Assembly (NCBI GenBank): GCA_030066985.1
Contig: JASJAN010000012.1
Span: 1-64,000, forward strand
From: Desulfobacterales bacterium
GTDB lineage: Bacteria > Desulfobacterota > Desulfobacteria > Desulfobacterales > JAHEIW01
DNA: 64,000 nt
Direction: 5' to 3'
How positions within the stretch are numbered: the first letter of the stretch is position 1; each line of letters begins with the position of its first letter. Made by a program: the position numbers and the translations under genes. Under the pieces are notes generated by a model. The model worked only from the letters and a program-made list of their open reading frames with translations, did not search any database and was not told the origin of the DNA. Below, piece after piece: positions 2,026 to 31,356 of the stretch.

Positions 2026-3765
2026 ATGAGAATTTTAAGAAGACCAACGGGGGGGTTGGGGCAAATTCTGGTACTGGCAGTTACGGTATTCAGCTTGCAG
2101 CTGGTATGCTCACCGGCTTTCGCAGAGCTCGGCAGTGATCAGGCCATTTTTATCGATTTTACCGGAACCGAGTGCGGGATCATCAGTGCCGATACGATGG
2201 ATGTGGTCAGTACCTTTCCTTGCGACCAGTATTCGGAAGGCATCGATGTCACCAGCGACGGGACCCGGGCCGTTATCGGCAACTGCGGTAACAACAGATT
2301 GACACTTGTCGATCTTACGGTGGACTATAATGTCGAGGGTACTGAGCCGCCACCATGGATCGATTCAGGCGTACGATGTGTCCAGGAGCTTGACATTGCG
2401 CCGGACAACAGTTTTGCCATCGCCACCGGCAGCGCCGATGGACTGATCTCCAAGTTCACGCTGGAGCCTTTCGAAGTCCTACCGGACAATCCTGCCGGAC
2501 CCTGGGATACTGAAGATATTTTTGGTGGCTCTACCCAGGATGTGCATATGAACAGCAGTGGCACCCTGGCTGTGCTGCCAACATTTCGGTCTGATTTTTT
2601 TGCGGTCGTGGATGTCACCGGAGATATACCGGAGCTGGTCAATACGATTCCAACACCGGCCAATCCCGATAATCCGGAGCAAGGCTTGAGTCACCATGGT
2701 ATCAGTCTGTCCCAATATGACGATGACACCTTCGTGGCAACGGGTACTCCCGGGCTGTTGTACATTACGATCGGTTCGCTCAGCGAACTTTTTGACCCCA
2801 TTGTTATACCGACATCAACTGATCCGGATGGTATGCCGGGTCGCCCGGAATCGGTGGATATCACCTGCGACGGCACCCGCGCGGTGGTGGAAACCTTTGC
2901 AGGCCTCATGTGGATCGACCTGGAGTCCACGCCGCCAACGGTTTTAAGCGAAAATTTCGGTCCTGCTCGAATCGATTACAACTCCACCTCGACGGTGGCT
3001 TTTTCAGCCGATGGCAGCCTGCTGTTTGTCGGTGGCCAGCAACAGATCGATATCTATGATGTCTACTCTGACCTACCGGAGCTGAGGGGATCAATCCCCA
3101 TGCTGGAAGGAGTAAGAATTTATTCGGTTGCCACTTTGCCCTGCTCAGCAATAGTGTCGAGAATCTCGGAAATTTCGGATATCGAAGTTGCCGTTGATAT
3201 CAAACCGAGAAACTGCCCCAATCGGTTAAATGTCAGGAGCAAGGGGGTAGTGAAGGTTGCCATCCTGGGCAGCGACGAATTTGACGCAACTTCCGTTGAT
3301 CCAAGCACCGTTCGATTAGAAGGAGCCAGTCCGCTGCGCTGGAAATTCAGAGATGTGGCGACGCCTTACGAAAGTGACAACATGAAGGGCGACTGTAAAG
3401 ACTGCACCCGCAAGGGACGCGATGGCTTTTTGGATCTGGAGCTTAAGTTTAAAAAGCAGGATATCGTCGCAGCCCTCGGTTCGGTCAATAACGGGGAATG
3501 CCGCGTACTGAACCTGACCGGCAAGACCGATGAAGGCACCACCATTATGGGCGATGATGTGGTCCTCATCCAAGCCAAAAAGAAGCGGTACAGCAAAAAA
3601 TGGTTTAAAAAATTCTTTTTTTCCTGGCTGAAGGCGCACAAGAAAGCCAAGAAAGGCAAAGATTGCAAAATCGAAAAGCCGCAAAAAACCAAGAAAAATA
3701 AGAAAAAGTCCAAATACTCAAAGGTTAAAAAGACACGCTGGGATCGTTATGATAAGCGTCGCTAA
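2026..3765 (+). CDS. Secreted beta-propeller protein with lysine-rich tail, under c-di-GMP riboswitch
   Basis: The 579-residue protein has a classical signal peptide (hydrophobic core about residues 14-32, cleavage near AFA-EL). Residues about 35-370 form WD40/YVTN-like propeller repeats (recurring patterns such as DVTSDGTRAVIGN, DITCDGTRAVVE, FSADGSLLFVGG). Residues about 385-515 match a domain common in exported proteins of sulfate reducers and archaea (VDIKPRNCPNRLNVRSKG, VAILGSDEFDATSVDPSTVRL, LTGKTDEGTTI). The last 60 or so residues are very rich in Lys/Arg with some aromatics. A strong ribosome site (AAGGAG) precedes the ATG. Upstream control is the GEMM-I riboswitch; a perfect terminator follows. 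A role as a c-di-GMP-induced surface or matrix protein is inference; the basic tail could bind anionic polymers or DNA. Confidence 0.85.
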   Translation: MRILRRPTGGLGQILVLAVTVFSLQLVCSPAFAELGSDQAIFIDFTGTECGIISADTMDVVSTFPCDQYSEGIDVTSDGTRAVIGNCGNNRLTLVDLTVDYNVEGTEPPPWIDSGVRCVQELDIAPDNSFAIATGSADGLISKFTLEPFEVLPDNPAGPWDTEDIFGGSTQDVHMNSSGTLAVLPTFRSDFFAVVDVTGDIPELVNTIPTPANPDNPEQGLSHHGISLSQYDDDTFVATGTPGLLYITIGSLSELFDPIVIPTSTDPDGMPGRPESVDITCDGTRAVVETFAGLMWIDLESTPPTVLSENFGPARIDYNSTSTVAFSADGSLLFVGGQQQIDIYDVYSDLPELRGSIPMLEGVRIYSVATLPCSAIVSRISEISDIEVAVDIKPRNCPNRLNVRSKGVVKVAILGSDEFDATSVDPSTVRLEGASPLRWKFRDVATPYESDNMKGDCKDCTRKGRDGFLDLELKFKKQDIVAALGSVNNGECRVLNLTGKTDEGTTIMGDDVVLIQAKKKRYSKKWFKKFFFSWLKAHKKAKKGKDCKIEKPQKTKKNKKKSKYSKVKKTRWDRYDKRR

Positions 3766-3853
3766 TGCAACCACTAATCAAGATTAATTTGTAAACGGTT
3801 GTAAGGGCAGACATTACCTAGCAAATTGACAAAATTATTAATTAAAACCCGAT

Positions 3854-3897
3854 AGCCGGGTTGCCTGAAGACAGCATTCAGGCAACCCGGCTTTTTT
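3854..3897 (+). terminator. Strong intrinsic terminator after the propeller gene
   Basis: A perfect 16-bp stem AGCCGGGTTGCCTGAA (3854-3869) with complement at 3877-3892, 7-nt loop GACAGCA, then a T6 run. The first 13 nt are identical to the riboswitch 3' strand at 1897-1909. Confidence 0.9.
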
Positions 3898-13475: not shown

Positions 13476-13508
13476 GGCGCGGTAAAACCGTCGATGTTTT
13501 ACCGCGCC
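13476..13508. repeat. Perfect 13-bp inverted repeat, 7-nt loop
   Basis: GGCGCGGTAAAAC (13476-13488) and GTTTTACCGCGCC (13496-13508) flank CGTCGAT. No T run follows on either side, so it is not a standard intrinsic terminator. It lies between the DUF5679 and DUF1330 genes and could be a transcript-end stabiliser or a protein site. Confidence 0.6.
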
Positions 13509-18282: not shown

Positions 18283-18370
18283 AAAAGCGATCTTAAAAAT
18301 GCATCTAATCCGCCTGAGGCGGACAGGCGCCCATGGGCTTTGTTCTCCAGGATAAATGGATTAGATCTTA

Positions 18371-18617
18371 GTTTTGACAGGATCTACAGGATTTTGAGGA
18401 TATTTTACTTAGTCGCTCTCCGGACGAGAGCGACTAAACTCAATCCGCTTTCAGCGGAATAAAAACCTTCGGTCATAAAATTTTACCTTGGAATAGACTT
18501 TATATTTTAAAACCATCAAATTGGTTGATAAAAGTAGGTAATGCTCGCCGCAGGCGATTGGGTTTGGCCGTTCTCATCTGGAGAACGGCCAAAAAACCTG
18601 TAAATCCTGTCTAAAAA
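18371..18617. repeat. Inverted-arm repeat element A (9-nt unit ACAGGATTT)
   Basis: This fills most of the 430-bp gap 18283-18712. The left arm holds three 9-nt units (ACAGGATCT, ACAGGATTT, TGAGGATAT; from 18378) and the right arm (18591-18617) their reverse complement. Inside are: a perfect 12-bp stem (18409-18420/18426-18437), a small hairpin starting AATCC (about 18442-18458), an AT-rich spacer, hairpin TCGCC-GCA-GGCGA followed by TTGGGTTT (18545-18565), and a perfect 13-bp stem (18563-18575/18581-18593). Read on opposite strands the two long stems share the core CTCRTCYGGAG but differ elsewhere. A further small hairpin, TCCGCC-TGA-GGCGGA, lies just outside at about 18309. No protein gene is present. 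Confidence 0.7.
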
Positions 18618-18712
18618 TTTTTTTGCGAGGTTGAACTCATCCCAAATATCGAATCGCCTATCGGAAAATGACATGACCGCACAAAGCTGAATTTTATCTT
18701 TAAAATGGGACA

Positions 18713-19879
18713 CTAGATAACGTCCAATTGAGGGTAAGGGCCGCCGTTCAGAAATTCATGCTTCAGTTCCCACCAGCGACGCCCCACTGTTGCATACAGG
18801 CTGCGGTAATCCACACTGAATTTTAAATCTTCATTTTCCAGTTCCTGCAATGAGGGCTGCCGGCCGTAAAGTCCGCCCTTGACCTTACCGCCCATGACCA
18901 AATGAGGTGCCGCCGTGCCGTGATCGGTACCGCGGCTGCCGTTTTCCGCCGGACGTCGGCCGAATTCCGAATAGGTCATCACCAGCACCTGCTCCCAAAG
19001 ACCCATCTGCTGCATCGCACGCTGAAAAGCCATCATGGCTTCGGCCAGCTGCTCAAGCAGTCGATCATGGAGGTTACGCTGGTTGGCATGGGTGTCAAAC
19101 CCGCCGTGGGATACTTTGATCACCGGAATGGCCGCGCCGCCGGCAATCAGCAGGGCCGCCGTTTGAAGGTGCCGTCCTATGATCGTTTTGGGAAAAACCA
19201 CCTCGGATGGTAGCTGAATGCTGATCTTCTGATCCAATTCCCGGGCCGAGCGGTAAACATCATTTTGGACCGCCAGCAGGTGTTTGAGGGCCGGGTTCCG
19301 GCTGCTGGCTTCGATTTGTTGCACGCGTTTGGCTTGCCGGAAAAACTGCTTCAGGTTTTTCATGATCACCAGCCGCAGGTCACCGCCGGCCAGCGGCCCG
19401 GCATCACCGCCGATGGCCGCTCCGTCGGCAATAGTCCGCGAAGGCTCGGGCAAATGCATTAATGTACGAGCCAACCATCCAGTTTGCAGATATTGACTGC
19501 TCGAAGATCCGGTTTCCCAGATCTCGATGGAGCGAAAATGCGACCGATTCGGCTGTGGATACCCGACACCGGCAATAACCGCCAGCTGCTTTTGCTGCCA
19601 GATCTCCATCAGGGCTTTCAGGCGCGGGTTAAGTCCCAAATTTTCAGATAATTGCAGGACGCTGCCACGTTTGACGGCCAGGCCGGATCGCATCTGATAA
19701 TAGCGCTGATCGGTGTAGGGCACGAGGGTATTAAGCCCGTCGTTGCCGCCTTTCAATTCGATGAGCACCAAAATCCGCTGCGAGGGCTTTTCCGCAGCGT
19801 GGACATTTGGCAACAGACGGGAATGGAGCGACCAGATAAGCGCGCCGGCTGCTATCTTTAGAAATTCTCTGCGTTTCAT
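18713..19879 (-). CDS. DUF1501 family exported protein
   Basis: The 388-residue protein starts MKRREFLKIAAGALIW, a twin-arginine-type signal, and continues with the DUF1501 pattern: ILVLIELKGGNDGLNTLVPY, GLNPRLKAL, VIAGVGYPQPNRSHFRSIEIWET, GGFDTHANQ and MTYSEFGRRPAENGSRGTDHGTA. The fold is that of the alkaline-phosphatase/sulfatase superfamily; the family's reaction is not established. It is the second gene of a leftward pair, 12 bp after the DUF1800 gene. These two families occur together in many bacteria, which suggests they act jointly outside the cytoplasm. Confidence 0.93.
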   Translation of the reverse strand: MKRREFLKIAAGALIWSLHSRLLPNVHAAEKPSQRILVLIELKGGNDGLNTLVPYTDQRYYQMRSGLAVKRGSVLQLSENLGLNPRLKALMEIWQQKQLAVIAGVGYPQPNRSHFRSIEIWETGSSSSQYLQTGWLARTLMHLPEPSRTIADGAAIGGDAGPLAGGDLRLVIMKNLKQFFRQAKRVQQIEASSRNPALKHLLAVQNDVYRSARELDQKISIQLPSEVVFPKTIIGRHLQTAALLIAGGAAIPVIKVSHGGFDTHANQRNLHDRLLEQLAEAMMAFQRAMQQMGLWEQVLVMTYSEFGRRPAENGSRGTDHGTAAPHLVMGGKVKGGLYGRQPSLQELENEDLKFSVDYRSLYATVGRRWWELKHEFLNGGPYPQLDVI

Positions 19880-19891
19880 CTACATACCTTC

Positions 19892-21301
19892 CTATTTTAA
19901 CTGATACACCGGGTCCTGCACCAACTGCGAAATCAGGTCTTGGCGATCGGTCAATGCTTGGGGTGCTGATATCGGTGGCAACGGCAACAAAACTTTGCTG
20001 ACCGTCTGATCGGTTAAATTTTCACCAAATAGCGGGCTGGATGCCATTTGGGCGCTCATGTTTGCGGCGTTTAAGCGTCCCGCCTTTTGACCGGCCTGCA
20101 GCATTTCCATACCGCGCAAGAATCGATCCAGTATCTGGTGGCGCATCATGAGTGTATCGGATGAAATCCAGTGGTTTCCGCCTGGCCAGCCTTTCACATT
20201 GGGCGGGTCCATCAGATCCTGACCCAGGCGGCGGCTGGCCAGTACGATACCGCGGCCATCACCCATGGGAAATTGAAACACCCGCAGGGTCCCCACGATT
20301 AAATCCACCGGGGATTTAATCATGACGCCCACTGTTTGCGGTTCCCTGAAGGCCTTGCTGGTCAACAGAGCCTGCATCAGCGGTTTTAATTCATATTCGT
20401 TCGAGCGCAGCACACCGGCCAGACGCTCAATTTCCTTTTCATCCACTGTTTGCGAAACAAACGCTCGCCAGAGTTTGGTGGTGATATGGATGGCCACCTG
20501 CGGCTGCTCCAGCACAATGTCGATGATGTCATCCCCGTTAAAATTGCCGGTGCGCCCCATGAAGGTTTTGGATCCGAAATCGTGGCGGCGGCGGACAAAT
20601 CTGAACTTGCCGGTGCGCCGATCGATGGTCCAGCCCGTAAATGCCCGGGCGGCTTCTTTGATATCGGTTTCGGTGTAATGGCCTTCACCCAGGGTAAACA
20701 GTTCCAGCAGCTCGCGGGCAAAGTTTTCATTGGGTTTGGCCCTCTGGTTGAAAGCATTGTCCAGATAAATGATCATGGCCGGATCTTTGGCCACCGCGCG
20801 AAGCAACTGTCGGAAATTGCCCAGCGCGTGCTGCCGTAACAGCAGGTTTTGACGGTACATTAGTTTGGGGGATTTTACTTTGCGCAGGCCCGAGGTAAAA
20901 TGATTGTGCCAAAAAAGCGTCATTTGTTCAGCGAGGGGCGCATCGGTTTCAACCATCTCGCGAAGCCACCAGGCCTTGAGCTCAAAACTGCGCCGCCGCC
21001 ATTGCTGGCGTAATTTTTTACGCTCCTCCGCACTGAGCTGTTTGATCTGTTTGCGGCTCATCAACGGTTCATTAACCCACTCCGGTGGCGGGGTTGCCGG
21101 CTTTTGACGCGGCTGTTTCAGGATGGCAGTCACGGCTTCAGTGTAATCCGTTGATTCCAGCGCCTTGATTTGTTCCGGTGTGCCGCCAAAACCGGTACGC
21201 GCCAGCAGATGCCGCGCCTCTTCAAAGCTCATTCCGAATGCGGCCCGCGACAGCAACCCCAACAACAGCAATAACAAAGAAAAAAAAAGCAAGCGTTTCA
21301 T
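19892..21301 (-). CDS. DUF1800 family exported protein
   Basis: The 469-residue protein has a signal peptide (MKRLLFFSLLLLLLGLLSRA) and the DUF1800 landmarks: FEEARHLLARTGFGGTPEQI, MTLFWHNHFTSGLRKV, AMIIYLDNAFNQRAKPNENFARELLELFTLG, EAARAFTGWTI, RHDFGSKTFMG and DPPNVKGWPGG. I choose ATG 21301 because AGAGGA lies just upstream and the signal peptide then starts correctly; an in-frame start 11 codons earlier adds a non-signal extension. It is first in the pair with the DUF1501 gene. Function is unknown. Confidence 0.92.
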   Translation of the reverse strand: MKRLLFFSLLLLLLGLLSRAAFGMSFEEARHLLARTGFGGTPEQIKALESTDYTEAVTAILKQPRQKPATPPPEWVNEPLMSRKQIKQLSAEERKKLRQQWRRRSFELKAWWLREMVETDAPLAEQMTLFWHNHFTSGLRKVKSPKLMYRQNLLLRQHALGNFRQLLRAVAKDPAMIIYLDNAFNQRAKPNENFARELLELFTLGEGHYTETDIKEAARAFTGWTIDRRTGKFRFVRRRHDFGSKTFMGRTGNFNGDDIIDIVLEQPQVAIHITTKLWRAFVSQTVDEKEIERLAGVLRSNEYELKPLMQALLTSKAFREPQTVGVMIKSPVDLIVGTLRVFQFPMGDGRGIVLASRRLGQDLMDPPNVKGWPGGNHWISSDTLMMRHQILDRFLRGMEMLQAGQKAGRLNAANMSAQMASSPLFGENLTDQTVSKVLLPLPPISAPQALTDRQDLISQLVQDPVYQLK

Positions 21302-21429
21302 GACGCGATCCTCTTTAAGCGGCAATAAAATCAAATTTGATTTTCCTGTTGTATAATAACCCGCCGGGATTGTAAAAGTTTCGCTGATGCATGAACATTT
21401 ATTTGAAATAGGGAGGAATTTTCAGAATT

Positions 21430-21655
21430 CTGCGGCTGCATAAATCATCAGTCCCGCATGAGCGGTATGCAAACTCATGCAAAAAGGCTCGTAGCAAAAG
21501 AACAGCGATCAAAAATGGAATAATGTTCGGATATGTTAATTTATCATGGTGCTATCAGGTTGCTTAACGGTTTAGCGATGTTCTTTCGCAACGATCCCTA
21601 ATGCATTCAGACAGTGCATCCCGCTCAAAGCAAGACTGATAATTCATTCCGCTTC
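21430..21655. repeat. Long imperfect palindrome (element K) upstream of the GT9 gene
   Basis: The 390-bp gap 21302-21691 contains two arms of roughly 85-95 nt that are imperfect reverse complements. Matching blocks include ATCAGTCCCGCATGAGCGG against the complement of CCGCTCAAAGCAAGACTGAT, and GTAGCAAAAGAACAGCGATC against the complement of GATGTTCTTTCGCAACGATC. As RNA it would form one long bulged hairpin with a loop of about 50 nt. No open frame is supported. Confidence 0.6.
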
Positions 21656-21691
21656 TGCCAGGGAATTTGATTGCATTTTATAAGGAGCTCT

Positions 21692-22645
21692 ATGACCGAT
21701 GCCAAACTATTAATAATCCACCAGGGCGCCCTGGGCGATGTGGTCTTAACCTTTCCGGCCATCATCGCGCTTCGCCAAAACTATGATCGCATCGATATCC
21801 TCTGCCAGAGCCAGATCGGAAAGCTGGCTGTCAGACTGGGACTGGTTGATAAAACCTATCCGCTGGAGGCGGCCTATTTTGCAACTCTTTTTTCAGATCA
21901 GGTGGATGTAAAAGTCAAAGACCTTATCAACAGTTATACCAGGATCCTTATTTTTTCATTTTCTTCCGATCTTGAGAACACCATCAATCAGATCAGCAAC
22001 AGCCCCTGCCTGCGCACCCCTCCCCGTCCGCCTGTTCAAGCCAGCATCCATGTCGCCCAACATCTGATGCAAAACATCATCAAGGGCGGGTTGATCGACG
22101 CCGTTGATTCACAGGATGTTGTCACATCCTGGCTTAGGAAACACACTGAAAAAGTAAGCCGACCGACCGACAGCCCAAAAATCATCATCCACCCGGGCGC
22201 CGGCAGCAAGCGCAAACGCTGGCCGTTCGAACGATTTTTACAACTGGCGGATGATCTCGGAAAAAAGGGGTTACAGCCGCAATTCGTGTGCGGCCCGGCG
22301 GAGCTGGATCTGATCGAAGACATACGGAATGAAAATCGACAGGTACACAAGTTTGATGAGCTGACGGATCTGGCGGATGCGCTTGAATCCGCCGGCGGTT
22401 ATATCGGCAATGATTCCGGCGTCAGTCAGCTGGCAGCGTTTTTGGGGGTGGCCAGTGTGGTCATTTTTGGCCCGGCGGATCCGCAGCGCTGGAAACCCGT
22501 GGGGCCTCGGGTGCAAATCGTGCGTCCCAAGCTAGAATGCAACCCGTGCTTTGAAATCGAAGCACAAAATTGCGATCAGCCCGCCTGCCTCGCAGATGCG
22601 ACCCTGGAATCGGTTCTCACCGCTTTTGATCAGGTGCGTGAATGA
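21692..22645 (+). CDS. Glycosyltransferase family 9 (ADP-heptose:LPS heptosyltransferase-like)
   Basis: The 317-residue protein has the GT9 pattern: N-terminal LLIIHQGALGDVVLTFPAIIALRQ, the inter-domain strand IIIHPGAGSKRKRWPFERFLQLAD, and the nucleotide-sugar site GYIGNDSGVSQLAAFLGVASVVIFGPADPQRW-PVG. GT9 enzymes add heptose to lipopolysaccharide inner core on the cytoplasmic side. The C-terminal CNPCF/C cluster is also seen in the family. I start at ATG 21692 with AAGGAG five bases upstream, rather than the TTG at 21671. The gene is single; the long palindrome lies directly upstream. Confidence 0.92.
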   Translation: MTDAKLLIIHQGALGDVVLTFPAIIALRQNYDRIDILCQSQIGKLAVRLGLVDKTYPLEAAYFATLFSDQVDVKVKDLINSYTRILIFSFSSDLENTINQISNSPCLRTPPRPPVQASIHVAQHLMQNIIKGGLIDAVDSQDVVTSWLRKHTEKVSRPTDSPKIIIHPGAGSKRKRWPFERFLQLADDLGKKGLQPQFVCGPAELDLIEDIRNENRQVHKFDELTDLADALESAGGYIGNDSGVSQLAAFLGVASVVIFGPADPQRWKPVGPRVQIVRPKLECNPCFEIEAQNCDQPACLADATLESVLTAFDQVRE

Positions 22646-22690
22646 CATAGTTGTCCGGAAAGCTGCATAACAGCATCACCGGTCGCACGA

Positions 22691-24235
22691 TCAGGATGAC
22701 AGCTTGATCGCGGCCTTGCGGGTTTTCGCGGCCAGATCACGGTAATCAACCGTAGTGAGCCGGCCCTGATCGATAATCTTTTTACCGTTCACGAAGCTGT
22801 AATCGACATAGTCATTGTGACATACGACCAGAGCGGCCACTGGGTCCGCATGGGACCCGACGAATGCATCGCGTTGCGTGTCGAAAGCAATGAAATCCGC
22901 TGACATGCCCTTGGCAAGATGACCGATATCGTCGCGCGACAGCGCCTTTGCGCCGCCCAGGGTGGCGATTTCGAGCGCTTCGCGAGCCGTCATGCCCTTT
23001 ACATCCACTTCGCGCACACGGGCCAACAGCAGCGCAAGTCTGGCTTCCTGGATAAGGTTGCTGGTATCATTGGAGGCCGAGCCATCCACCCCCAGAGCCA
23101 CTTCCATACCGGCATCCAGCATTTTTCTGATTGGGGCGGCACCGCTTGCCAGGCGCATGTTGCTGGCAGGGCAATGGCAGGCCGCCACACCCGCTCTGGC
23201 GAACATGCCGATATCTTTGTCGTCGAGCTGAACGCAATGGGCATGCCAGACCCTATCGTCGAGCCAGCCGAGGGTTTCGGTCCACGGCCCGGGCCGCATC
23301 TTGTAGTTCCTGGCCATATATTTGATGTCATCCCGATTCTCTGCCAGGTGAGTATGCAGCCCTACGCCCGCGTAGCTTTTCGCCAGCTCCGCAGACTCGC
23401 GCATGAGTTGCTCGGTAATGGTAAATGGCGAACAGGGTCCCAGCGCAATGCGCAACATCGAATGGCGGGAGTTGTCGTGGTATTGTTCGATCAGCCGTTG
23501 AGAATCTTTTAAAATATCTTTTTCTTCTTCCACCACGGAGTCCGGAGGCAATCCGCCTTTGCTCTCACCGATGCTCATGCTGCCCCGGACGGCGGTAAAA
23601 CGCATGCCGATTTCCTGCAGCGCCTGGATCTCATCATCGATCCTGCAGTCATTCGGTAGGATATAGAGATGATCGCTGGAGGTGGTGCAGCCGCTCAGAA
23701 GCAGCTCGGCGGCGGCCAGCTTGGCACTCAAGTAGATGTCACTGGAGCGCATGTTGGCCCAGATCGGGTAAAGCGCCTTGAGCCAGGGAAAGAGGGTGCC
23801 ATCCGGCTTTACCACGCGGGTCAGCACCTGGTAGAAGTGGTGATGGCAGTTGACCATCCCCGGCATGACAATATAGCGATCTTTGAAATCCAGGATCTCG
23901 TCAGCAGTTTTGGGCAGCTCTGATGTCGGTCCGATGGCATCGATGACGTTACCGCGCACAAAAAGAGCACCGTTGCGTATTTCCCGGCGCTTTTCATCCA
24001 TCGTCACAAGGGTGTGGATGTTTTTGACCAGCAGGGTCCGGTCTCCACCGCCGCCGGTTGATGTCTTGCCGGCCGCATGGGCACTGGCTGCGCCGGTCAC
24101 ACTCGAGGCCGCCGCCAGAAGCGGTGTCGCTGCCGCCAATGTGCCGCACCCTTTCAAAAATTCACGGCGCGACACCTCGCTGTTGTGCATACCACAATGG
24201 GTTTCATTTTTCATTTGTCCTCTGGTTTCGATCAT
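22691..24235 (-). CDS. Tat-exported amidohydrolase, 8-oxoguanine-deaminase-like
   Basis: The 514-residue protein carries SRREFLKGCGTLAAATPLLAA, a twin-arginine signal, so it should act outside the cytoplasm. The rest closely follows the 8-oxoguanine deaminase pattern: VMPGMVNCHHHFYQVLTR, LFPWLKALYPIWA, ELLLSGCTTSSDH, RGSMSIGESKGGLPPDSVV, LGPCSPFTITEQLMRESAELA, HTHLAE (metal His), WHAHCVQL, CHCPASNMRLASG and GVDGSASND (metal Asp). Known members deaminate 8-oxoguanine or related purines and triazines in the cytoplasm. The product could equally act on another purine-like ring. The export signal is the odd point. The gene is convergent with the GT9 gene and not in an obvious operon. Confidence 0.85.
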   Translation of the reverse strand: MIETRGQMKNETHCGMHNSEVSRREFLKGCGTLAAATPLLAAASSVTGAASAHAAGKTSTGGGGDRTLLVKNIHTLVTMDEKRREIRNGALFVRGNVIDAIGPTSELPKTADEILDFKDRYIVMPGMVNCHHHFYQVLTRVVKPDGTLFPWLKALYPIWANMRSSDIYLSAKLAAAELLLSGCTTSSDHLYILPNDCRIDDEIQALQEIGMRFTAVRGSMSIGESKGGLPPDSVVEEEKDILKDSQRLIEQYHDNSRHSMLRIALGPCSPFTITEQLMRESAELAKSYAGVGLHTHLAENRDDIKYMARNYKMRPGPWTETLGWLDDRVWHAHCVQLDDKDIGMFARAGVAACHCPASNMRLASGAAPIRKMLDAGMEVALGVDGSASNDTSNLIQEARLALLLARVREVDVKGMTAREALEIATLGGAKALSRDDIGHLAKGMSADFIAFDTQRDAFVGSHADPVAALVVCHNDYVDYSFVNGKKIIDQGRLTTVDYRDLAAKTRKAAIKLSS

Positions 24236-24421
24236 ACCGCACCTCTACTTTCTCTGGCATTTGGGTGTCCCATGCAGCGGATTGTCCAGCAAGATTGCAA
24301 AGGCCTCCCTAAAGGCAGGAGCCCGCGTTAATTTTACCAATGTAATTTTTAGTGGTGCGCCCATAAGGGCTTGTTGACAGCCATGCGTCAGGCAAAATGT
24401 AAGGGCATGTATTGGTTTTGA

Positions 24422-25744
24422 TTATTTTGTAATCACCCTTACCGAGGTGGCCGTGGCGCCCAAACCGGCACCGGCTGCAGTGACATCCTGCAGCGGCTTG
24501 CCCGTCAGTAGCGCTACACGCTCTTTGATCTTCCAGCCCCGAGCGCTCAGCGCCTTGTTGCATTCCGGCGAGGCGCTGCCTTCCAGCCACAGCTCCCGGT
24601 TTTGCGCCTGTGGATTTTTCTCAACCGCCGCAGCGATCCTGGAGGTCTCTGCAGTCCAGGCCAGATAATCAATCGGGAATGCGCCCACTAAAACACCCTT
24701 GCGGTTCATCAGCCAGACCTCATTTTCGACTTTGACGATGTCCGCCTGCCCGTTTTTTTTCTGGTAATTGAGCATCATCTCTGACATCTGGTGATAGTAG
24801 CGCGCAATGATCTTATCCGGCGCCCCTGTCGCCTGGGCCACGAAAAGATCGCGACCCTTGGTGTCTTTCATCAACCGCAGGGCTTCCACCAGCATGGTTT
24901 TCTCCATGGGGGTATAGTTGTAATTTTTAAGGAAAGGATCGATCACTTTTTTGGAAACACCCATTTTTTCAAGTTTTTCACGGTTGATCTTGGTCAGCCC
25001 CTCGGGAGGGTTGTCCAGTAATATGGCGTTCATTTCAGCGGTTAAGCTGGTTACGGTTATGATGGTGCCGACCGTAGTGCCCTCTGTCACGGCACCCATG
25101 GCCACCCCGACGGTAATACCGCCGGCAAAAGCCGCCCGGGCAACGGCCGTCAGCGCCTTTTGCAACGGTTCCCAGTCGGTATAGGGGTCCACCCCCAATT
25201 CCAGGGCAAACGCACGTTTGGTGTTCGCCCAGCCCGTCGCTGCTGAAACACCGCTTTCCTGGTAGGGATCATCGCTGGCAATCGAACGGCCGATGTTGCC
25301 CACCCAGCGGCCCACGCCCTTGACCGCCCCTTTGGTGGTCTCTACCGGCGCGGTTACAAGCGCCTTGCCCCCGCGAATAGGTGCTAGGATACCCTCTTTC
25401 ATGGCGTCGCCGAACACGCCGGCTTTACTCATCTCGTCTAAAATGATCAGGGCCCGCACCTCCTGGATCTGACGCGCCAGCTGGTAATCGCTGATGGCCT
25501 GGACATCACCGACTTCAGTCTTCAAGGTATAGGTGTTGCTGTAACCGTCATTGAGGGCCTCGGGGTCAATTTTATAGCCCTTGCCCACCATATTGCCATC
25601 CGGCACCACCAGGGCTGCATTTAACCTCAACGGCGGTTTTACATAAGCAGGCTTGTCCGCCGCCACGGCCAAAGTAAAACCCAGACCAGCAACCGCGATG
25701 GTCAAGATAATGGTCAGAATGCGCAGGTTAAATTTGGTGATCAT
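24422..25744 (-). CDS. Exported protein of unknown function
   Basis: I do not recognise the family. The 440-residue product begins MITKFNLRILTIILTIAVAGLGFTLAVAADK, a signal peptide with cleavage near VAA. I choose ATG 25744 since AAGGAGG sits upstream. Residues about 105-150 are rich in Gly and Val (GKALVTAPVETTKGAVKGVGRWVGNIG), and about 195-225 form a possible membrane-active Gly/Ala/Val segment (FAGGITVGVAMGAVTEG). The C-terminal half is helical with conserved-looking aromatic residues; it ends in a small Gly/Ala-rich part. It is divergent from the porin gene across 250 bp, so the two may share regulation in the envelope. Confidence 0.7.
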   Translation of the reverse strand: MITKFNLRILTIILTIAVAGLGFTLAVAADKPAYVKPPLRLNAALVVPDGNMVGKGYKIDPEALNDGYSNTYTLKTEVGDVQAISDYQLARQIQEVRALIILDEMSKAGVFGDAMKEGILAPIRGGKALVTAPVETTKGAVKGVGRWVGNIGRSIASDDPYQESGVSAATGWANTKRAFALELGVDPYTDWEPLQKALTAVARAAFAGGITVGVAMGAVTEGTTVGTIITVTSLTAEMNAILLDNPPEGLTKINREKLEKMGVSKKVIDPFLKNYNYTPMEKTMLVEALRLMKDTKGRDLFVAQATGAPDKIIARYYHQMSEMMLNYQKKNGQADIVKVENEVWLMNRKGVLVGAFPIDYLAWTAETSRIAAAVEKNPQAQNRELWLEGSASPECNKALSARGWKIKERVALLTGKPLQDVTAAGAGLGATATSVRVITK

Positions 25745-25993
25745 GGTTGTCCTCCTTATTAATGCGTGATTTACACAAATTGATGGGGTATTGGAATAAG
25801 GGCAGAATTCAGGGCCGGTTTCCCGCGTCACCGGAAACCATTAACCCCGAATGGCTCACAATCGTAAAAACTAAGTATCTTAAGATGCTTTTCAAGTGCA
25901 AATGAAAACTAGATGTAAGCTTGACATTGCAGACGATAACGTTTCATACCTTGGTTTAAAAATCAATTGGCAATCAGGATAAGGAGGACTCCT

Positions 25994-27295
25994 ATGGAGA
26001 AGGTATCGGTGAAAAAAAACGGCAACCGGTTGGCATTGGCACTGGTATGCGGGGCGCTGTTGTTGGTCACGCTCTCCAGTCCGGCCCTGGCAACGAATGA
26101 TGACCGCATAGCAGAACTGCAGCGTCAAATCGAAGCACAACAGGCCATGCTCGAAGAGCTAAGCAAACAGGTAAAAGAGCTGCGGCAGGCCGCCGCGAAT
26201 AAAGCGACCGGGGCGGATCAAGGGCCCAAAGGATCCAGTGACACCCAAGTGCAGGTGTTTGGCAAGGCTATCGTCACCTCTAAAGACCCCCGCTTCAAGG
26301 TCAAGATATCCGGCCAAGTCAATCGCCAGGTGGCCTATGCTGAAGATGGCAACAACAGCAAGTTTTATCACACCGACAGCGACAACAGCCCTACCCGAAT
26401 CAATATCGAGGCCCAGGGCAAAGTCAGTGAGGATCTGACCGTGGGTGCCCGAGTCGAGACCGGCTACCAGGACAACCGCCCGTTGGAAGTCAACCAGAAC
26501 AATGAAAATTCCGGTTTTGATTTCACCAGCCGCTGGCTCGAGGCCTATGTTGCCAGCCAGCGTTTTGGCAAACTGGGCGTCGGCAAAGGCTTTGCGTCCT
26601 CCTTTTATATTGATGAAACCGATCTGTCCGGCACCCAGGTGGTCAGTTTGCTCTCTCCCGGAAATCTCTTCGGCGGCCTGCTTTTTTACAGCAATGACAT
26701 CAACGACTATACCAATATCAGAGTAAGTGATGTTTTTGTCGACCTGGAAAACCTATCGATCGTCAACCGTGTGCGCTATGATTCACCGCACTTTTATGGA
26801 TTTCAGCTTTCGGGCAGCACTGGCTCCAATCAGCGCCATGACGCTACCTTACGCTATAAAAACGACATTGGTGATTTTAAATTTTCCGGCGCTTCGGCCT
26901 ACCAGAGAAACTCATTCGGCGGGCTGCTGGACTGGCGCGTCGACGGCGCTTTATCGACATTGCATAAGCCCAGCGGACTCAGTCTTACCGGCGGCGCTTT
27001 TTATGCCAGGGCCAACAGCGACAATCGCCACTTGCAAGGCTTTATCGTCAAAGGCGGCTGGCGCAAAAAATTCTTTGACTTCGGTGAAACAGCGCTGTCA
27101 ATTGATTATGTACAAAACGATGATTCCAGCGCGGATGATGAAGACGGCAAAACTTACAGTGCCTTTGTGGTACAGGACATCGAGCGCTGGGGTCTGCAGG
27201 TATATGGCGGCTACCGCTATTACGACCTCGACCGCCAGGGGCTGGATACGGAATCCATCCATGTGCCGGTGATTGGCACGCGCAAGATATTCTGA
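25994..27295 (+). CDS. Outer-membrane porin with N-terminal coiled coil
   Basis: The 433-residue protein starts at ATG 25994 with AAGGAGG upstream; an earlier ATG adds nine residues without a ribosome site. A signal peptide (cleavage near ALA-TN) is followed by a short coiled coil (IAELQRQIEAQQAMLEELSKQVKELRQ) and then about 330 residues of alternating amphipathic strands rich in Tyr, Gly and Asp, typical of trimeric porins (KVKISGQVNRQVAYAEDG, LTVGARVETGYQDN, RWGLQVYGGYRYYDLD). It ends with phenylalanine, the usual outer-membrane beta-signal. Substrate range is unknown. Confidence 0.88.
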   Translation: MEKVSVKKNGNRLALALVCGALLLVTLSSPALATNDDRIAELQRQIEAQQAMLEELSKQVKELRQAAANKATGADQGPKGSSDTQVQVFGKAIVTSKDPRFKVKISGQVNRQVAYAEDGNNSKFYHTDSDNSPTRINIEAQGKVSEDLTVGARVETGYQDNRPLEVNQNNENSGFDFTSRWLEAYVASQRFGKLGVGKGFASSFYIDETDLSGTQVVSLLSPGNLFGGLLFYSNDINDYTNIRVSDVFVDLENLSIVNRVRYDSPHFYGFQLSGSTGSNQRHDATLRYKNDIGDFKFSGASAYQRNSFGGLLDWRVDGALSTLHKPSGLSLTGGAFYARANSDNRHLQGFIVKGGWRKKFFDFGETALSIDYVQNDDSSADDEDGKTYSAFVVQDIERWGLQVYGGYRYYDLDRQGLDTESIHVPVIGTRKIF

Positions 27296-27362
27296 ATTAT
27301 AAATATGTTACTGCGGAGCACACTGAGATCACAGAGCAGAAATCAAATGAGGATTGTTAAAA

Positions 27363-28043
27363 ATGGATGTCGCCGGCAAACTGACGGCCCTGGAAAACAT
27401 ATACCGCATTTACGACGAATTTGCGGACTCGCTGGAGCTGGCATGCAAAAAACACTGCGCCCACTGCTGCACCACCAGCGTTACCCTGACCACAATCGAG
27501 GGCTATCACATCATCCAGCAGCTAAATTCAGAAAGGGATACGGACTGGCTGGGAAAAATCGTCCAGGCTGTTGAGCAGCCCCATTTCCAGCCGAAAATAA
27601 CCACCAACCGGCTGGCTCAGCTGTGCGCCCAGGGAATGGATGCGCCGCAAGAAAAATTGCCCACAAGCAATACGTGCCCGTTTTTAAGCGCTGACCTATG
27701 CCCCCTTTACACCGTCCGCCCCTTTGGCTGCCGCTGCCTGGTATCGCGCCACGATTGCGGCCGGCATGGCTATGCCGATATCGACGATTTTGCGCTTTCG
27801 GTCAACACGGTGATGCTGCAGACCATCGAGCACCTGGATGCCGATGGCTGCAGCGGCAACTTGCTGGATGTGCTTAAGATCATGTCCGGGGAAGATAATC
27901 GTCAGGCGTTTCAGCAGGGCAAATTAAACTGCGCCTCAACAGGGCTGATTGCCAATCAGCCGCTTAAGGTCCTGATGATCCCCCCAGAGCACCGCAGCCG
28001 CATGGCGCCCATCCTGCAGTCCCTGCGCGAAATTCGTTTTTGA
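27363..28043 (+). CDS. YkgJ-family cysteine-cluster protein
   Basis: The 226-residue protein has the YkgJ zinc/iron-chelate cysteine pattern: CKKHCAHCCTTSVTLT near residue 35, then CPFLSADLCPLYTVRPFGCRCLVSRHDC around 105-135. This is the CxxxCxxCC ... CPFL ... C-x-IY-x-RP-x-CR arrangement of the family, which probably binds a metal; the cellular role is unknown. I use ATG 27363 (GAGGA upstream) rather than the TTG at 27354. It lies 67 bp after the porin gene and just before repeat element B. Confidence 0.87.
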   Translation: MDVAGKLTALENIYRIYDEFADSLELACKKHCAHCCTTSVTLTTIEGYHIIQQLNSERDTDWLGKIVQAVEQPHFQPKITTNRLAQLCAQGMDAPQEKLPTSNTCPFLSADLCPLYTVRPFGCRCLVSRHDCGRHGYADIDDFALSVNTVMLQTIEHLDADGCSGNLLDVLKIMSGEDNRQAFQQGKLNCASTGLIANQPLKVLMIPPEHRSRMAPILQSLREIRF

Positions 28044-28048
28044 TTCAG

Positions 28049-28314
28049 TTCACCGCAGAGACGCAAAGCTCGCAGAGATTTAATTTTTTCATTTACCGCT
28101 GAGAGGGCGGTAAATGAAAATCCTCAGCCGCTGCGCGGCAGGATTATCATTCAAAAAGTAACCCGGTGGCAATACATATAGCGACATGCCTATATTAGCA
28201 GGGTGTGAATATTTGAACCCGCCCGCAGGGCTTGGGTTTATTTCTTTTCGGCCTCTCACCGAAAAGAAATAAGAAAAATACCCTTTGCGAACTCTGCGTC
28301 TCTGCGGTGAAAAA
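28049..28314. repeat. Inverted-arm repeat element B (9-nt unit nCGCARAGn)
   Basis: It occupies nearly the whole 309-bp gap 28044-28352. The left arm (28049-28080) is three 9-nt units, ACCGCAGAG, ACGCAAAGC, TCGCAGAGA. The right arm (28281-28314) is the reverse complement of ACCGCAGAG, ACGCAGAGT, TCGCAAAGG. Inside: a 14-bp stem (28086-28099/28107-28120) with loop TGAGAGG, a hairpin flanked by AATCCT/AGGATT (28119-28145), a spacer, a GCCCGCAGGGC hairpin followed by TTGGGTTT (28221-28239), and a 14-bp stem (28238-28251/28259-28272) with loop CCTCTCA. The two loops are exact reverse complements while the stems are unrelated. The block order equals that of element A. Confidence 0.75.
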
Positions 28315-29204: not shown

Positions 29205-29268
29205 GCTGACGCTCCGGAAGCTAAATTTTAATTTATAGTTATGCAGAAAGCTCAAGTGAAGCAACCCT

Positions 29269-29349
29269 AACCACGAAGGGCACGAAGGACACGAAAAAAT
29301 AAAAGTAAAAATATGTTTTTCCCTTTGTAATCTTCGTGTTCTTCGTGGT
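29269..29349. repeat. Inverted-arm repeat element C (9-nt unit CACGAAGGN)
   Basis: The left arm is CACGAAGGG, CACGAAGGA, CACGAAAAA (29272-29298). The right arm (29321-29349) is the reverse complement of CACGAAGAA, CACGAAGAT, TACAAAGGG. Only about 22 AT-rich bases separate the arms. It lies just upstream of the amidohydrolase gene (complement). Confidence 0.75.
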
Positions 29350-29458
29350 CAGATACATATCAGTTGTGTTCAACTTGAGTTTGCCAGATAACAGCTTTTT
29401 AATTTTGTGGCAGGTGGATATTGTTATGGAAAAGATTATCAAAATTCAAACAAAAAAA

Positions 29459-29530
29459 TAACGGCTAATCAGTTTTTTGATTAGCCGTTAAGGAGGAGAA
29501 CAGATGAAGAAATTATTAGGCTGCACTTAA
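29459..29530 (+). other. Perfect hairpin directly followed by ribosome site and an 8-codon frame
   Basis: TAACGGCTAATCA (29459-29471) pairs perfectly with 29478-29490. AAGGAGGAG follows at once, then ATG at 29504 opens an 8-codon frame, MKKLLGCT, closed by TAA at 29528. The start resembles a lipoprotein signal that stops early. It may be a leader peptide, a gene remnant or a hairpin-gated ribosome site. No coding sequence is recognisable downstream. Confidence 0.4.
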
Positions 29531-31253: not shown

Positions 31254-31275
31254 ACATACCTACCCCAAAATACAA

Positions 31276-31308
31276 AACGCCAGCCGGGTAACAATTCCGG
31301 CTGGCGTT
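31276..31308 (+). terminator. Hairpin terminator between the MFS gene and dctP
   Basis: AACGCCAGCCGG (31276-31287) pairs perfectly with CCGGCTGGCGTT (31297-31308). The T tract is short and interrupted (TTTGGTTGTTT). It sits between convergent genes and could serve both directions weakly. Confidence 0.7.
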
Positions 31309-31356
31309 TGGTTGTTTATGAGATGTAAAGCAGTTTAACCCTGGTTACATATTAGC

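Follow-up and report, generated by a model that had tools for sequence, protein, structure and literature searches.

Two intergenic elements, A (positions 18371 to 18617) and B (28049 to 28311), lie in the 64-kb stretch of Desulfobacterales DNA analyzed here (the window; positions 1 to 64,000 of contig JASJAN010000012.1). We interpret them as cargo-less miniature elements that are related to a class typified by GxxExxY genes and that are moved in trans at the DNA level, recognition of their arms by a nuclease being the likeliest mechanism; we put the probability of this reading at roughly 0.6. Members of this class are small mobile DNA elements with inverted arrays of 8- to 9-nt units as their boundaries, and those seen here to bear a gene carry chiefly a small GxxExxY gene (the gene that was searched for). 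That A and B are miniature relatives of GxxExxY elements is a part of this reading in which we are rather confident; for a nuclease step, by GxxExxY, in moving them, we judge the chances to be slightly below even. The interpretation is built on what we observed of copy number and spread, end modules, two-sided stem changes, presence and absence at orthologous sites, inversion in place, GxxExxY genes at shared ends, and agreement between arms and protein phylogeny.

Elements A and B each consist of two facing end modules

The original prediction, made from the letters of the window, described constant-loop, variable-stem, multi-block elements at 18371 to 18617 and 28049 to 28314. Both are present at those coordinates in the 64-kb window, and every named part was located in place. 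Each element consists of two end modules that face one another, and each module, read from the outside inward, comprises an arm of 8- to 9-nt units, a long perfect hairpin with a constant loop and a variable stem, then a motif resembling CTCAA or CCCAA, and lastly a short hairpin. The arm units are GACAGGATC, TACAGGATT, and TTGAGGAT in A and ACCGCAGAG, ACGCAAAG, and CTCGCAGAG in B, and the arms, which are inverted, match the ACC[AG]C..AG or ACAGGAT type. As claimed, the loops of the two long stems of each element are inverted copies of each other. The description of the arms as three 9-nt units was correct except for the right arm of A, which has two. The parts are as follows.

18371 to 18617, no strand: element A, whole; the orthologous site in sister genome G002 is without the element
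18372 to 18395 and 18592 to 18615, inverted: arm pair of A, 88% complementary
18376 to 18401, plus strand: left arm of A, three units (GACAGGATC TACAGGATT TTGAGGAT)
18409 to 18437: long hairpin 1 of A, perfect 12-bp stem, loop CGGAC (TCCGGAW class)
18444 to 18458: short hairpin 1 of A, TCCGCTTTCAGCGGA, beginning AATCC and preceded by CTCAA
18460 to 18545: spacer of A, with no open reading frame (ORF) of at least 80 aa
18546 to 18565: short hairpin 2 of A (GCC hairpin, CGCCGCAGGCG), then A and TTGGGTTT, the latter at 18558 to 18565
18563 to 18593: long hairpin 2 of A, perfect 13-bp stem, loop inverted relative to that of hairpin 1
18596 to 18611, minus strand: right arm of A, ACCTGTAAATCCTGTC, two units only
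28049 to 28311, no strand: element B, whole; G002 holds an internally deleted remnant at the same site
28049 to 28077, plus strand: left arm of B, TTCACCGCAGAGACGCAAAGCTCGCAGAG, of the arm type that flanks GxxExxY genes across phyla
28049 to 28077 and 28283 to 28311, inverted: arm pair of B, 90% complementary
28086 to 28120: long hairpin 1 of B, perfect 14-bp stem, loop TGAGAGG
28127 to 28139: short hairpin 1 of B, core GCCGCTGCGCGGC, inside AATCCT..AGGATT
28221 to 28239: short hairpin 2 of B (GCCCGCAGGGC), then TTGGGTTT at 28232 to 28239
28238 to 28272: long hairpin 2 of B, perfect 14-bp stem, loop CCTCTCA, the inverse of TGAGAGG
28283 to 28311, minus strand: right arm of B

The window contains eight perfect stems of at least 11 bp (loop of 3 to 9 nt), four of which belong to A and B. 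Since none was found in any of six dinucleotide-preserving shuffles of the window, the palindromes of A and B are not due to chance. No ORF of at least 80 aa lies inside A or B, and at 247 to 263 nt both are too short for the 116- to 117-residue GxxExxY domain and so lack that gene.

A and B recur in many copies and vary at orthologous sites

The window is part of a 5.07-Mb draft genome (the home genome), which was examined by DNA searches and with covariance models of single ends. Model R1 (B) was built from 24 ends and model R2 (A) from 23 ends, and matches with E values up to 0.001 were taken. The DNA searches returned many full and partial copies of A and of B. The models matched 71 B ends and 44 A ends, counts that are approximate because only the 74 to 75 best-ranking candidates of each genome received a score and both strands of a palindromic end can be matched. 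With the home genome included, end matches occurred in 27 of 58 genomes for B and in 21 of 58 for A. More copies in this genome and its relatives had been expected, with a lack of them counting as refutation; dozens were found, and that objection fails.

Where the home genome has element A, the sister genome G002 has continuous sequence without it (an empty site). Where element B stands, the same genome has, by eye, the 5′ flank followed by the start of the left arm (its first nucleotides) and the complete right arm, and this locus is an internally deleted remnant. A larger deletion spans the place of B in genome G001, which leaves no clean empty-site comparison there. We aligned seven orthologous element sites of the home genome with G001 or G002, measuring identity in three of them and inversion in two. 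The three same-orientation pairs (gaps omitted) were identical at 467 of 507 positions in the ends, 143 of 189 in the spacers, and 2741 of 3198 in the flanks, so that in these three of the seven pairs the ends have been kept better than the neighboring sequence. Two sites are inverted in place: the spacer of L101/L054 scored 23 inverted versus 8 direct (300 shuffles, maximum of 13.5), and that of L105/L007 scored 41 versus 14.5 (shuffled maximum of 15.5). At the L100/L046 site, two species differ in stem type, at both ends; the seventh aligned pair is L125/L013.

Repetitive extragenic palindrome (REP)-like sequences (CCGTCGCTnnnAGCTATGGC) are nested in the loops of long hairpins at five loci of the home genome and G002 (L045, L050, L073, L025, and L015), as if the hairpins were insertion targets for a second element, and CCCGCTTCGCTCGAG-like pieces sit in arms.

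The long stems change on both sides

Alignments A1 (B) and A2 (A) were made from ends picked by a perfect-palindrome filter; the filtered set also held two A rows that were not elements and four B rows that were A stems, which were excluded. A1 comprised 24 of 41 B rows, namely, those in which the arm was plain and the stem 35 nt long; 96.7% of 336 cells were paired, with two-sided changes in 8 of 14 pairs (65 cells) and no one-sided (G-U) changes. The 11 unpaired cells all lay at the loop-closing pair, and the covariation score was 0.496, versus 0.145 for shuffled sequences. In A2, comprising 23 of 29 A rows, 95.0% of 298 cells were paired, a fraction that is inflated because two of the six omitted rows have an imperfect stem; two-sided changes occurred in 10 of 13 pairs (72 cells) and a one-sided change in a single cell. 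The covariation test proposed for aligned copies thus shows that the stems covary, bearing out the claim that structure is kept while stems vary.

We repeated the count from the arms alone, and not from palindromes, at loci that had been fetched by similarity to the elements. Of 52 B arms, 41 were followed by a perfect stem (12 bp), and of 49 A arms, 32 (11 bp). When up to two mismatches were allowed, a hairpin followed 45 of the B arms (12 of 52 when shuffled) and 41 of the A arms (8 of 49 when shuffled). The B hairpins contained 534 Watson-Crick, 1 G-U, and 5 mismatched pairs; the A hairpins, several of which are chance hairpins, contained 429, 10, and 12, respectively. In an RNA, passage through G-U states is to be expected, and their near absence from the covarying stems speaks for DNA rather than RNA. 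A REP survey describes G-T pairs as frequent in GTAG repeats and takes them as a sign of RNA function (PMC3733652). Two causes that do not exclude each other fit the pattern seen here, namely, selection on a DNA hairpin or cruciform and a copying process that corrects one arm of the palindrome from the other.

GxxExxY genes lie at A- and B-type ends

Ends of both types occur beside GxxExxY genes. In locus L143 (genome G028), B ends at 3074 to 3166 and 3678 to 3768 enclose a 139-aa GxxExxY ORF, and in L247 (Candidatus Desulfaltia), arms and TGAGAGG-type hairpins stand on either side of a GxxExxY gene. A ends lie directly after GxxExxY genes (PF13366 matches) in L145 and immediately before a GxxExxY ORF in L235, while L236 has a GxxExxY gene with ACAGGAT arms on both sides. 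All four GxxExxY ORFs that were scanned match NCBIfam TIGR04256 and Pfam PF13366. Other genes are found at such ends as well: A ends in L145 also follow an ORF pair resembling, by eye, HicB and HicA, and a HicB-like ORF (by eye) lies between a B end and an arm-like right end in L082. No transposase gene was seen between the ends in L143, L145, L082, L235, and L236 as read, no systematic scan having been made.

We compared gene presence with end number in the 54 genomes that both sets of searches covered, uncorrected for relatedness. GxxExxY was present in all 18 genomes with at least five ends and in 16 of the 36 others (P = 4e-5); it was present in 23 of 26 genomes with at least one end and in 11 of 28 without. 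The corresponding figures for genomes with at least five ends versus the others were 17 of 18 versus 24 of 36 for the IVP family (S23p; PF05635) and 16 of 18 versus 32 of 36 for the Y1 transposase (Spearman coefficient of 0.23, P = 0.09). This co-occurrence of GxxExxY with the ends is support, not proof.

Positions 3359 to 6450 of L235 (G019:C99) hold A-type elements in a head-to-tail row, about 24 nt apart and adjoining GxxExxY genes, which looks like a local amplification. The 33-kb contig G028:C32 (L232 and L233) carries many IVP genes, GxxExxY genes, and element ends and resembles a cassette island.

Arm units go with the GxxExxY protein

The home genome has six IVP genes and two GxxExxY genes, most of them between inverted short-unit arms, each with a different unit; at the IVP loci L063 and L064, no arms were found and the arms are weak, respectively. 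A location of these genes inside A or B ends was ruled out, most of them sitting in other short-unit arms.

Order-wide, flanks were tested at an arm score of at least 13, using loci with full flanks (22 of 31 GxxExxY and 29 of 35 IVP loci) and controls shifted by 800 nt. Inverted arms were found at 15 of 22 GxxExxY loci and 22 of 29 IVP loci, compared with 1 of 44 and 0 of 58 shifted windows. Among loci with arms, the best period was 7 in 17 of 22 for IVP and 9 in 10 of 15 for GxxExxY. A cross-phylum test covered 71 of 80 GxxExxY loci, from named genomes, at an arm score of at least 12, and found inverted arms at 56 of the 71 genes versus 4 of 133 shifted windows, with a best period of 9 in 26 of the 56 and of 8 in 10. 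According to record titles, the hosts, mostly metagenome-assembled genomes (MAGs), include members of the Desulfobacterota, Planctomycetota, Verrucomicrobiota, Bacteroidota, Chloroflexota, Acidobacteriota, Gammaproteobacteria, and Methanothrix.

We kept 77 of 105 ORFs as having arms; 9 of the 77 were unclassified, and a tree was made of the remaining 68 GxxExxY proteins. Mapped onto this tree, six arm-unit classes required 7 changes (minimum, 5), whereas shuffling gave a mean of 27.0 and none of 200 shuffles was as low. Because a single arm class is drawn from different phyla, the arms go with the protein and not with the host. The agreement fits either inheritance of arms and protein as one unit or recognition of the unit by the protein.

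Long hairpins were present at five of the GxxExxY loci read (L143, L247, L251, L252, and L235). Within the set of 77, those with a long hairpin between the aligned arm and the gene are L178 and L181 (CACAGAC arms), L303, and L314, the hairpins of others lying inside the aligned arm. The long perfect hairpins of L178 and L181 suggest that hairpins may have arisen or spread more than once.

GxxExxY resembles PD-(D/E)XK nucleases

Residues E39, D79, E89, and K91 are invariant in seven GxxExxY sequences, and the same four are invariant in an alignment of 36 sequences (36 of 80 loci used). The alignments keep the Glu of the motif, an Asp, Glu-x-Lys, and a Gln, as in PD-(D/E)XK nucleases. Pfam assigns PF13366 to the PD-(D/E)XK nuclease superfamily. 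An AlphaFold model of GxxExxY (predicted local distance difference test score, 93.5) gave no Foldseek match with an E value under 0.001. The best rows, with E values of 1.5e-3 to 7e-3, were SSO0001 (a Cas4), lambda exonuclease, and RecE. In a second structure comparison, SSO0001 came out on top (Z score of 9.3 over 96 residues; root mean square deviation of 3.0) and the Holliday-junction resolvase Hjc scored 6.5, where a Z score below 8 may reflect a common arrangement only and a shared fold is no proof of function. GxxExxY has no sequence relative in the PDB. Literature searches on the family name and accessions found no functional study, and one reverse transcriptase paper, in the part available, names GxxExxY a single time, in passing.

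Proposed mechanism

In the mechanism that we propose, GxxExxY proteins would recognize units of their own arm type, with cutting or processing of the element ends as the outcome. Processing would take place at the hairpins, which would arise either by extrusion as DNA cruciforms or on single strands in the course of replication; the constant loop would be read by sequence and the stem by shape alone. Miniature copies would be moved in trans and might also flip through exchange between their inverted arms. The earlier suggestion of a hairpin substrate for a recombinase is thereby retained in part: a DNA-level recombination substrate is the best kind of reading, and the associated protein is GxxExxY, not Y1.

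A number of observations weigh against this mechanism. So far, neither transposition nor an excision product nor DNA binding has been observed, and at element A's one clean empty site no clear target-site duplication was seen and the edges are AT-rich. Only two GxxExxY genes are present in the home draft genome, and their arms (CACGAAG and CGCAGATT) are of neither the A nor the B type; an active partner of A and B in this genome would be lost, missing from the draft, or promiscuous. Three of the 26 genomes with ends (G007, G024, and G044) lack GxxExxY. Furthermore, IVP tracks the elements nearly as well as GxxExxY does (Spearman coefficients of 0.62 and 0.64), so general element load could explain the co-occurrence. 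Some stems carry uncompensated changes (L168/L003), and most GxxExxY elements are without long hairpins (4 of 77 have one between the aligned arm and the gene), from which it follows that the class does not need them. As for the arms, they also appeared when flanks from different loci were paired, in 6 of 66 (GxxExxY) and 4 of 87 (IVP) cases, which we interpret as units shared by different elements; among the 56 cross-phylum arm matches, at least 4 (L271, L279, L292, and L300) are not unit-arm-like. The 7 changes of arm class were counted for classes drawn up after the arms had been viewed beside the proteins and on a tree of few columns, and the shuffles test clustering only. Finally, the agreement between arms and protein could be mere co-inheritance of one element; recognition is favored over this because the arm units are alike among proteins that are only about 55 to 60% identical.

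Alternative explanations

The alternative that survives best, although we consider it unlikely, is that A and B are miniature inverted-repeat transposable elements (MITEs) dependent on an ordinary DDE transposase, whether still present or since lost, with the GxxExxY and IVP genes as passengers. The inverted ends, intergenic copies, cargo-free high-copy forms, and presence/absence are all MITE-like, and the HicA- and HicB-looking ORFs (by eye) show that the same ends have other cargo. However, a passenger would not force arm class to track GxxExxY phylogeny across phyla, the five loci read for a transposase gene between the ends (not a systematic scan) showed none, and no clear target duplication is seen at the empty site of A.

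We regard as improbable the idea that A and B are old insertions of no present function, with palindromes kept perfect by neutral copying (template switching, quasi-palindrome correction, or exchange between copies). Such copying predicts two-sided changes without G-U and constant loops, as observed; identical stem types are common to different loci and species, and stem types differ at one orthologous site (L100/L046). It leaves the constant arms and loops, the cargo at the same ends, and the arm-protein agreement unexplained. Neutral copying can nevertheless act on top of the movement in trans of miniature GxxExxY relatives that we favor.

Equally improbable, in our estimation, is that A and B are REP/REPIN-like elements moved on single-stranded hairpins by a Y1 transposase (IS200/605 or TnpA_REP), a link that the original prediction had raised. 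According to PMC3733652, REP families have hairpins with a constant motif and complementary stem variation; the home genome has three Y1_Tnp matches, and short REP-like palindromes are nested in some hairpins and arms. Yet the three Y1 loci, each taken with 1.5 kb on either side, contain no A or B arms, the presence of Y1 does not follow the distribution of the elements (16 of 18 versus 32 of 36 genomes), and G013, with 20 A-end matches, and G016, with 34 B-end matches, have no Y1 match. The ends of A and B are inverted arms of repeated units; the REPs of that survey have GTAG or CGTC tags, and the GTAG families have frequent G-T pairs. Y1 was therefore rejected on linkage and co-occurrence.

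Least probable is the other earlier suggestion, a structured RNA, or two-way transcription terminators, with stems selected as RNA, which we rejected as the main reading: the perfect stems are bordered by A and T runs and the ends are better conserved than the flanks between species, but G-U states are almost absent, no Rfam family matches the elements at the gathering score, and a terminator has no need of a symmetric inverted layout, of spacers that vary, of arms lying beyond the hairpins, or of inversion in place.

Other repeats in the window

A third, smaller element at 29267 to 29352 has CACGAAG-type arms (29267 to 29287 and 29332 to 29352), the arm class of the GxxExxY clade of L067, and is not at the corresponding spot in G002 (comparison by eye). 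Nested inverted repeats with a 20-nt outer pair (29238 to 29392) surround it, and the stretch from 29221 to 29400 has matches at 13 listed places in G001. Immediately 5′ of element A lies a repeat of about 80 nt (18283 to 18366) with many G001 copies at 83 to 92%; G002 is without a 19-nt GC-rich piece of this repeat, which suggests that small palindromes also insert there. An intergenic inverted structure at 21435 to 21652, with nested arms (21435 to 21453/21634 to 21652, 21459 to 21471/21615 to 21627, and 21477 to 21512/21571 to 21606), is another repeat family, with many relatives in G002 and some in G001. Further perfect long hairpins, with loop types other than those of A and B, lie at 29459 to 29490, 3854 to 3892, 13476 to 13508, and 31275 to 31309. 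An Rfam scan of the window gave a single match at the gathering score, a c-di-GMP-I riboswitch (c-di-GMP-I-GGC aptamer, 1832 to 1912, 73.4 bits), and no rRNA.

Relation to known systems

Taken together, these observations tie an unexplained repeat to a common protein family of unknown function and provide a testable rule, in which each GxxExxY clade is paired with an arm unit of its own and most IVP genes with 7-nt arms; how the intervening sequences (IVSs) of 23S rRNA move and what GxxExxY and IVP genes do are thereby opened to test. We tentatively suggest, while holding it to be rather doubtful, an undescribed class of mobile DNA across bacterial phyla and Methanothrix MAGs (archaea), with no known transposase, in which a Cas4-like GxxExxY would read arrays of its own 9-nt unit and mobilize its own gene and hairpin-ended satellites, and IVP (S23p) would do likewise with 7-nt arrays. 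If this were true, the 23S rRNA IVSs would be an outlying branch of the same scheme. A nuclease that did read its units would represent a new type of small mobility enzyme that reads repeats. Open-licence literature searches found no description of A and B or of the wider element class, and priority elsewhere is possible.

The library entries for the GxxExxY family (TIGR04256, PF13366), whose gene is found between the same ends, are silent on function and on arms. The model of the protein has the same fold as the Cas4, lambda exonuclease, and RecE group of PD-(D/E)XK nucleases; it differs in that its Foldseek match has an E value of 1.5e-3 at best, with no sequence relative in the PDB. Heptameric short tandemly repeated repetitive (STRR) sequences of cyanobacteria are short tandem 7-nt arrays between genes, like the arms of IVP loci.

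According to PMC4990558, the 23S rRNA IVS of Coxiella burnetii has tandem GACAGAT heptamers just before its S23p (IVP) gene and terminal inverted repeats that form a 28-bp stem; it is termed a selfish element of unclear origin, and earlier authors are said to have proposed mobility. Such IVSs resemble the loci described here in having a small gene between terminal inverted repeats with tandem short units beside the gene, and by their heptamers and terminal inverted repeats our 7-nt-armed IVP loci follow the same plan as the Coxiella IVS of that account. IVSs, as described there, sit in 23S rRNA and carry IVP, whereas A and B are intergenic and gene-less, have 8- to 9-nt units and long constant-loop hairpins, and have arms in common with GxxExxY elements; they have no rRNA match and no ORF of at least 80 aa, and the IVP matches of the genome lie elsewhere.

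As short non-coding repeats, A and B are a new variant of MITE-like elements. They are short, non-coding, present in many copies, and bounded by terminal inverted repeats, and they show presence/absence at orthologous sites (the empty site of A and the remnant of B). With MITEs and REP/REPIN sequences they have in common a high-copy, intergenic, palindromic, and non-autonomous look and, as PMC3733652 describes for REPs, complementary stem variants. A MITE would share its ends with an element that encodes its transposase; the ends of A and B recur at genes for GxxExxY, a predicted nuclease with only a putative role in their movement. What sets A and B apart from both groups is their arms of 8- to 9-nt units, constant loops on variable long stems, and a predicted nuclease gene at the ends of their relatives.

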